A stretch of DNA of 6,154 nt from T1SED10-198M sp003554345 [NCBI: Candidatus Sumerlaeota bacterium] (lineage in GTDB: Bacteria; Sumerlaeota; T1SED10-198M). The notes beneath the pieces are model-generated. The model did not search any database, was not told the DNA's origin, and saw only the letters and a list, made by a program, of their open reading frames with translations. This document shows, in pieces, positions 2,557 through 3,807 of the stretch; position 1 is the first letter of the stretch, and every line of letters begins with the position of its first letter. The position numbers and the translations under genes were made by a program. The DNA lies in contig PWGE01000203.1 of NCBI GenBank assembly GCA_003554345.1, positions 1 through 6,154 on the forward strand, written 5' to 3'.

Positions 2557-3807
2557 GTGGATATTATCGTTCAGAAGTTTGGGGGGAGCTCTGTAGCCAA
2601 CCCTGAGCTTATCACTAAGGCTGCTAAGAAAGCTATAAAAGCAAAAGAAGATGGTTACGGAGTAGTTGTAGTAGTAAGCGCCATGGGTAAAACAACCGAT
2701 AATCTGCTGGAACTCACCTCACAGATTTCTTCCTCGCCACCGCCTCGTGAGATGGACATGTTGCTGGCTACCGGCGAACAGGTTACTATCTCTCTCTACG
2801 CCATAGCAGTTCATGCATCAGGACATGAAGCCATCTCTTTTACCGGTCCCCAGGTTAATATTGTGACTGACAACAGGCATGGACGGGCAAAAATAAAAAG
2901 TATCTGCAAAGAACGCATATTCGAAGAATTGCAAAAGGGAAAAATAGTGGTGGTGGCAGGCTTCCAGGGTATAACCGAAAACAATGATATCACTACCTTA
3001 GGTCGGGGTGGTTCAGATACCACTGCTGTTGCTCTTGCTGTTTCGCTGGATGCTAAAGAGTGCGACATTTATACCGACGTAGACGGTGTCTATACGGCAG
3101 ATCCCCGTATTGTTCATAATGCCCGAAAATTAAAGACTATTTCATATGATGAGATGCTGGAACTGGCAAGCGTGGGTGCCAAAGTGCTTCACTCACGGGC
3201 AGTAGAATTTGCCAAGAAGTTTGATATGCCTCTGCATGTCCGCTCCAGCTTTCTCGATACCACTGGAACATATGTTACAAAGGAGGAAAAATCCATGGAA
3301 AAAGTATTAGTGTCCGGCATAGCCTGTGAAAAGAACGAAGCAAAAGTATCCATTCTTGAGGTACCTGACCGTCCCGGAATTGCGGCGGCCCTTTTCCAGA
3401 ACCTGGCTTCAAAACAGATTGTGGTGGATATGATTATTAAGAACGTATCAGAGGGCGGCAGAAACGACATATCCTTTACGGTAGTGGACGAGGACCTTGA
3501 AGCAGCTCTTAATATCGCGAAAGAATTTCAGGGAAAATATGATGCTAAAAACGTCATATGGGATAAATCAGTGGCAAAGATTTCAGTAGTGGGGGTAGGA
3601 ATGAAAAGCCACAGCGGCGTAGCAGCTATGATGTTTCAGGCCCTGGCAAATAAAGGTATCAATATTGATATGATCAGTACTTCAGAAATTAAAATTTCCT
3701 GTATTATACCTCTGTCAGATGCTGATAAGGCTGTGAAGTCCATACACGAAACATTTCATCTTGCCGATAATATTGAATTTATGGGTGATATTGAAAAAAA
3801 CAGCTGA
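2557..3807 (+). CDS. lysC: Aspartate kinase (aspartokinase), ACT-domain, alpha subunit
   Basis: This enzyme phosphorylates L-aspartate with ATP, the committed step to lysine, threonine, methionine and diaminopimelate. With the GTG start it has 416 residues and begins MDIIVQKFGGSSV, as family members do; the longer frame from 2503 would add 18 unrelated residues. The amino-acid kinase domain spans about 1-245: KFGGSS at 7-12, LATGEQVTISLYA in the middle, GRGGSDTTA at 149-157, YTDVDGVYTADPR at 172-184, and SVGAKVLHS at 205-213. Two ACT domains follow, the first with VPDRPGIAAALF and the second from about 339 with GMKSHSGVAAMMF and NIDMISTSEIKIS. These normally bind the feedback inhibitor. Size and layout match the Bacillus subtilis aspartokinase II (monofunctional, alpha/beta) type, not the fusion with homoserine dehydrogenase. 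Which end product inhibits it cannot be read from the sequence. An internal start probably yields a second product. Confidence 0.97.
   Translation: MDIIVQKFGGSSVANPELITKAAKKAIKAKEDGYGVVVVVSAMGKTTDNLLELTSQISSSPPPREMDMLLATGEQVTISLYAIAVHASGHEAISFTGPQVNIVTDNRHGRAKIKSICKERIFEELQKGKIVVVAGFQGITENNDITTLGRGGSDTTAVALAVSLDAKECDIYTDVDGVYTADPRIVHNARKLKTISYDEMLELASVGAKVLHSRAVEFAKKFDMPLHVRSSFLDTTGTYVTKEEKSMEKVLVSGIACEKNEAKVSILEVPDRPGIAAALFQNLASKQIVVDMIIKNVSEGGRNDISFTVVDEDLEAALNIAKEFQGKYDAKNVIWDKSVAKISVVGVGMKSHSGVAAMMFQALANKGINIDMISTSEIKISCIIPLSDADKAVKSIHETFHLADNIEFMGDIEKNS
3279..3286 (+). promoter_or_regulatory. Internal ribosome binding site within lysC
   Basis: AAAGGAGG, a nearly complete anti-Shine-Dalgarno match, lies eight bases before the in-frame ATG at 3295. 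It is the strongest such site I see in the window, stronger than those of the annotated genes. It is built from Lys-Glu-Glu codons written AAG GAG GAA, with AAG and GAG used in a gene that often prefers AAA and GAA. Confidence 0.72.
3295..3807 (+). CDS. lysC: Aspartokinase beta (regulatory) subunit, in-frame internal start of lysC
   Basis: Initiation at the internal ATG would give a 170-residue protein identical to lysC residues 247-416, starting MEKVLVSGIACEKNEAK and holding only the two ACT domains. Bacillus subtilis aspartokinase II and several relatives are known to be alpha2/beta2 complexes in which beta is translated in this way from within lysC, at nearly the same codon. The supporting sequence evidence is the internal Shine-Dalgarno site at ideal spacing and the position of the ATG exactly in the kinase/ACT linker. 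The product would bind feedback inhibitor and pair with ACT domains of the alpha chain. This is inference from sequence plus family precedent: a methionine occurs here in many homologues, so the ribosome binding site, not the ATG, carries the argument. Confidence 0.62.
   Translation: MEKVLVSGIACEKNEAKVSILEVPDRPGIAAALFQNLASKQIVVDMIIKNVSEGGRNDISFTVVDEDLEAALNIAKEFQGKYDAKNVIWDKSVAKISVVGVGMKSHSGVAAMMFQALANKGINIDMISTSEIKISCIIPLSDADKAVKSIHETFHLADNIEFMGDIEKNS

Follow-up and report, generated by a model that had tools for sequence, protein, structure and literature searches.

The lysC gene described here very likely yields two proteins, both read in a single frame of a single mRNA, with a beta subunit translated from an internal start. 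As shown by comparison of LysC-type genes across the phylum, selection acts on this putative start as a site of initiation, and it very probably makes the regulatory half of the enzyme as a separate protein. The arrangement itself is already known, with alpha2beta2 enzymes formed as in B. subtilis aspartokinase II and C. glutamicum LysC; what makes the case interesting is how broadly a free beta subunit is selected for. The window, that is, the whole stretch of DNA analysed, comprises 6,154 nucleotides of contig PWGE01000203.1 from assembly GCA_003554345.1 (Candidatus Sumerlaeota bacterium).

The putative internal start site of lysC

On the plus strand, the window contains, in order, the end of a gene that matched no family, the trmB-like (methyltransferase) and apgM-like genes, lysC, a gene for a UvrD/PcrA-like helicase and the start of a last frame. 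The lysC product scored above the cut-offs of NF005155 (585.7 bits, cut-off 346) and TIGR00656 (449 bits, cut-off 402.25), and it has the architecture of a monofunctional aspartokinase, an amino-acid kinase domain and two ACT domains. Because the kinase match (PF00696) covers residues 3-230 and the ACT matches begin only at residue 267, codon 247 lies in the interdomain linker.

2557..3807, + strand: lysC, alpha subunit (aspartate kinase), 416 aa; GTG start, Shine-Dalgarno AAAGGAG
3279..3286, + strand: internal Shine-Dalgarno AAAGGAGG, overlapping Thr-Lys-Glu-Glu codons; −11.6 kcal/mol
3295..3297, + strand: internal ATG, lysC codon 247 of 416, predicted beta-subunit start; ATG in 33/33 phylum LysC genes; aligns with residue 1 of PDB 2dtj_A, 3ab4_B and 5yei_D
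3298..3300, + strand: GAA, second codon of the nested frame; GAA in 32/33 genes, ~15 expected given the codon usage of each gene
3295..3807 (stop included), + strand: predicted nested beta-subunit frame, 170 aa, 18.35 kDa, two ACT domains; 2dtj_A E = 5.6e-38, 5yei_D E = 7.5e-38

The lysC frame opens with GTG at 2557, and its stop codon ends at 3807. An 8-nt spacer (3287-3294) separates AAAGGAGG from the ATG at 3295, which is in frame with lysC, and the product predicted to start there has the N-terminus MEKVLVSGIACEK. Pairing energies were calculated with an assumed anti-Shine-Dalgarno sequence, as a search of the assembly for a 16S gene gave none. The internal site pairs at −11.6 kcal/mol, compared with −8.2 for lysC's own GTG, −6.4 for the apgM-like gene, −3.9 for the UvrD/PcrA-like gene, −3.1 for the trmB-like gene and −1.4 for the last open reading frame. 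The predicted nested product begins where the solved beta chains begin.

A preliminary description of this DNA had placed a Shine-Dalgarno sequence eight bases 5' of an in-frame ATG, between the kinase and ACT domains and after 246 codons, had ranked it above the starts of the surrounding full-length genes, and had proposed an ACT-only beta subunit nested within lysC. The position and the codon count are confirmed, the ranking holds against all five starts compared (−8.2 to −1.4 kcal/mol), and the nested subunit is supported by the ATG in 33 of 33 phylum genes and by its alignment with residue 1 of the C. glutamicum beta subunit.

The window gene was also considered as a DapG-type aspartokinase I. 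This assignment was ruled out, as its product scored 375.4 bits against NF006068 (PRK08210), which we take to be the DapG-type model (dapG), below the cut-off of 474. The apgM-like gene preceding lysC (1350-2543) exceeded the cut-offs set for TIGR02535, a model of proposed homoserine kinases, and for the apgM models; given its TIGR02535 score, it may act in the threonine branch of the pathway to which lysC belongs.

The 2.55-Mb assembly contains 146 matches to the pattern AAGGAGG-N5-10-ATG, compared with 34 to a reversed-pattern control. Among the matches listed, 99 distinct sites besides that in lysC were inspected: 75 resemble ordinary gene starts, 19 have a downstream frame of fewer than 60 codons, one is intermediate and four lie deep within a frame. 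The pattern therefore mostly marks starts in this genome, and deep in-frame copies are rare; based on the listed counts, we estimate the chance of such a site inside one given 416-codon gene at ~0.003. Conservation is stronger proof of the site than these genome-wide chance counts.

Selection on the site within the phylum

A LysC-type gene was found in 33 of 40 phylum genomes, namely the window's and those of 32 relatives (52–66% identity; 13 families); one of these genes (L048, residues 91-402) is partial. Genomes with only remote or partial matches (G007, G025, G037 and G038) or with no match (G009, G010 and G039) were left out. Because the window genome is alone in its family, order and class, synonymous drift was assessed at phylum distance and in six same-genus pairs elsewhere in the phylum. 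For 57 Lys/Glu/Gln columns, the expected number of G-ending codons was derived from each gene's own codon usage.

All 33 genes have ATG at codon 247, and the neighbouring linker columns are variable. A GGAG or GAGG core lies 6-12 bases 5' of this ATG in every gene. Inside the Shine-Dalgarno sequence, E243 is encoded by GAG in 33 of 33 genes against 17.6 expected (z = +5.7, the highest of the 57 columns), and K242 by AAG in 17 of 18 (9.7 expected; z = 3.6, the second highest, followed by columns at 3.3, 3.1 and 3.1). Right after the ATG, GAG encodes E248 in only one of 33 genes, again with 17.6 expected (z = −6.1, the lowest of the 57 columns). The spacer codons K245 and E246 also avoid G (z = −3.7 and −2.6), and among the Lys and Glu codons at 245-246, three codons on from K242 and E243, 32 of 40 are AAA or GAA. 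The z values spread more widely over the 57 columns than theory predicts (s.d. 1.93); therefore, only E243 and E248, together with K7 near the 5' end of lysC (z = −4.6), are clearly outside the spread, and K242 is little above other columns. The bias at K7 may reflect a corresponding effect of the initiation region at the alpha start, and the opposite synonymous choices at E243 and E248 are both as would be expected of an initiation site.

When each of the 13 families was represented by one value, from its least favourable gene, the probability was 0.00029 for GAG throughout at E243 and 6.4e-5 for GAA throughout at E248. The sole GAG at E248 occurs in L040, and other members of its family have GAA. 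The same-genus pairs lend modest support, with 2 of 18 codons changed at positions 242, 243 and 248 compared with 825 of 2191 elsewhere (Fisher p = 0.025). A synonymous shuffle of single genes, which is underpowered, was significant in none of the 33 (p = 0.07–0.51), the signal residing in the set. The AAG and GAG codons had been taken in the preliminary description as a hint of selection for ribosome binding; the counts at K242 and E243 bear this out, and the synonymous drift that would have spoken against it was not seen in the Shine-Dalgarno codons of the 33 LysC genes at phylum distance.

Measures of site strength were also obtained for the phylum genes. ATG 247 is the strongest in-frame ATG of its gene in 31 of 33, with ~4 expected for the whole stretch 236-250. 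When GTG and TTG were counted as starts, position 247 was uniquely strongest in 28 of 33 genes, with a better start elsewhere in L027, L029, L030 and L047 and a tie in L032. Local RNA structure at the site is below the gene's median strength in 32 of 33 genes, which A-rich codons may partly explain. The internal start outscores the alpha start in 22 of 28 genes (5 of the 33 being unscored), a rough comparison because alpha starts were chosen by the best Shine-Dalgarno sequence within a short stretch. In one phylum family (L033, L035, L041 and L047), the LysC open frames are 498–580 codons long and open well ahead of the kinase, representing either an N-terminal extension or a chance open frame.

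The site outside the phylum and in other aspartokinases

Outside the phylum, the strongest in-frame ATG falls within 236-250 in 12 of 14 LysC-like genes (1.5 expected); ten of these ATGs pair at −8 kcal/mol or better, and eight are located at 247. The ATG is shifted to 239 in L043, to 245 in L052 and to 241 in L055, in each case with its own Shine-Dalgarno sequence. In L055, Leu occupies position 247; the site of L056, at 241, is weak; and L050 retains the Shine-Dalgarno sequence over different residues, Pro-Glu-Gly-Gly. A junction start is absent in L057 and L058 (2 of the 14). That a start codon and a Shine-Dalgarno sequence are kept, rather than particular residues, is what selection for initiation would predict.

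These sites bear on whether constraint on the protein alone could account for the pattern, with Lys-Glu-x-x-x-Met-Glu kept for linker structure and the Shine-Dalgarno sequence arising as a by-product. We consider this very unlikely. The residues E243, M247 and E248 are invariant in the phylum and the per-gene shuffles were not significant, as such a constraint would allow; however, the synonymous choices at E243 and E248 are extreme and run in opposite directions, and outside the phylum the Shine-Dalgarno sequence is kept with other residues (L050) or with a start elsewhere in the linker (L043, L052 and L055). Together, the synonymous bias and the outside-phylum sites appear largely to refute it.

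Among 14 further loci, a junction start with a Shine-Dalgarno sequence was found in four: Subdoligranulum (GTG at 247, −12.4), Listeria (ATG, −12.2), Tsukamurella (GTG at 247, −9.3) and, weakly, Azospirillum (L148; GTG at 247, −5.9). In nine of the 14, no junction start was found among the strongest listed, namely in Embleya, the dapG genes of Cytobacillus and Pontibacillus, E. coli thrA and five remote paralogues. Embleya (L151) is a class-mate close to Tsukamurella with the same best NCBIfam model. Sinorhizobium (L150) was left out of judgement, its match being split into two frames. The annotated Tsukamurella record, the one examined among those with a junction start, lists only the full-length gene.

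As controls, 11 kinase-ACT paralogue loci were examined, which represent another aspartokinase type; NF006068 was the best model, above its cut-off, in 4 of 4 scanned (L002, L006, L009 and L012). The strongest ATG lay at the junction in 0 of 11, a count that is weak alone because only 0.3 was expected by chance. In L012, a weakly paired GTG (−5.2) occupies position 247. The junction of L004, a DapG-type control, carries GAGGAG (−8.9, ranking second among 400 positions), and no usual start codon follows it.

The case of L004, together with the location of the site at a domain boundary, would suit a Shine-Dalgarno-like stretch that pauses ribosomes between the kinase and ACT domains and aids folding without initiation. 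Such a pause would need neither a start codon at a fixed distance, nor GAA as the second codon, nor the exchange of ATG for GTG, and kinase-ACT paralogues with the same boundary mostly do without the site, including, among the strongest starts listed, 8 of 8 dapG, thrA or remote-paralogue loci. It is thus scarcely credible as the explanation, and selection for initiation remains the reading that we follow below.

B. subtilis aspartokinase II (lysC) is reportedly the subject of Chen, Hu and Paulus (1987) and Chen and Paulus (1988), and its beta start presumably sits at the corresponding linker position. The 600-residue aspartokinase of PDB 3l76, which we take to be cyanobacterial, has a LysC-type kinase with the same ACT pair as the window lysC; it differs in a second ACT pair fused in cis (second match 434-592) and in a Leu aligned to Met-247. 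A 2009 review is said to treat aspartokinase evolution; a literature search, with most subscription journals outside its reach, turned up no publication dealing with conservation of the internal lysC start across a phylum or with its hopping. PMC11005335, PMC13009471 and PMC13245402 mention neither lysC nor aspartokinase, and where PMC8144410 names aspartokinase the context is unrelated.

PMC1805508 describes two in-frame starts in the single B. subtilis lysC gene, giving two proteins and an alpha2/beta2 enzyme. Subdoligranulum and Listeria, whose LysC genes are the nearest to B. subtilis among the Bacillota compared, both have the site. The beta subunit of C. glutamicum LysC (PDB 2dtj, 3aaw, 3ab2 and 3ab4) is, like the nested product, a two-ACT protein (2dtj_A, E = 5.6e-38), and an alpha2beta2 structure is described for this aspartokinase in PMC10464499. 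The C. glutamicum alpha chain has Val at the position of Met-247, and the actinomycete Tsukamurella uses GTG where the window lysC has ATG. For C. jejuni lysC, PMC11955535 reports a putative internal start with a retapamulin internal-start signal, which its authors consider consistent with the short isoform of B. subtilis; the C. jejuni start is experimental, whereas the window site is comparative.

A model of two products from one frame

In the proposed mechanism, ribosomes initiating at GTG 2557 would produce the catalytic alpha subunit, consisting of the kinase and the ACT pair. Other ribosomes would bind AAAGGAGG directly and initiate at ATG 3295, releasing a free ACT-pair beta subunit whose sequence is the C-terminus of alpha. 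If the LysC enzymes of B. subtilis and C. glutamicum are a guide, beta would pair with the ACT part of alpha to give an alpha2beta2 enzyme with effector sites at the ACT interface. We infer that the internal site is used in the window organism, that an alpha2beta2 enzyme assembles and that lysine, threonine or both may inhibit it by feedback. An extension of the model, which we regard as doubtful, is suggested by the strong ATG site and the weaker GTG alpha start of the window: beta might be made in excess of alpha, serve also as a stand-alone amino-acid-sensing ACT dimer and be selected in its own right in many lineages, the start hopping about the linker with no loss of the product.

A conserved site could also be weakly used, or now silent in the window's lineage. 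The window genome is the sole one of its class in the data, which leaves its recent history without a close-relative test, and Lys-295 replaces the Gln of all 32 other phylum genes, so that LysC is possibly changing. Against this, lysC in the window retains an intact site that exceeds in strength all five other window starts compared, and we judge silence or weak use highly improbable. An active internal start, making beta beside alpha, remains our preferred reading.

The sequences alone show selection for separate production of the beta subunit across the phylum, with the same signature in genomes beyond it, so that it is no curiosity of Bacillus and Corynebacterium. Annotation with one start per gene would miss such nested products, and a lysC recoded with synonymous codons could lose one unnoticed. 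The opposite synonymous biases flanking the internal ATG offer an inexpensive way to search for further nested subunits.

The Lys-295 codon is AAG (window 3439-3441). Gln also occupies this position in 10 of 10 further LysC genes checked, and Q298 of C. glutamicum aligns with it; a table in PMC10464499 appears to link Q298G to a loss of inhibition by lysine. Lys-295 could mean that feedback is altered, or it could be an error of sequencing or assembly.

Two further loci were noted during the assembly search. L090 (G000:C57) encodes an acidic CDC48-like AAA ATPase that looks haloarchaeal by eye within a bacterial assembly, and its contig is perhaps a contaminant; the assembly's stated contamination is 4.32%. 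L061 (G000:C2, 399-1844) is a phage XkdF-like protease frame (PF14550) with AAGGAGG and an in-frame internal ATG at 1518, 109 codons ahead of the frame end. Its nested product is charged, with only weak coiled-coil-like family matches, and may be a nested capsid scaffold.
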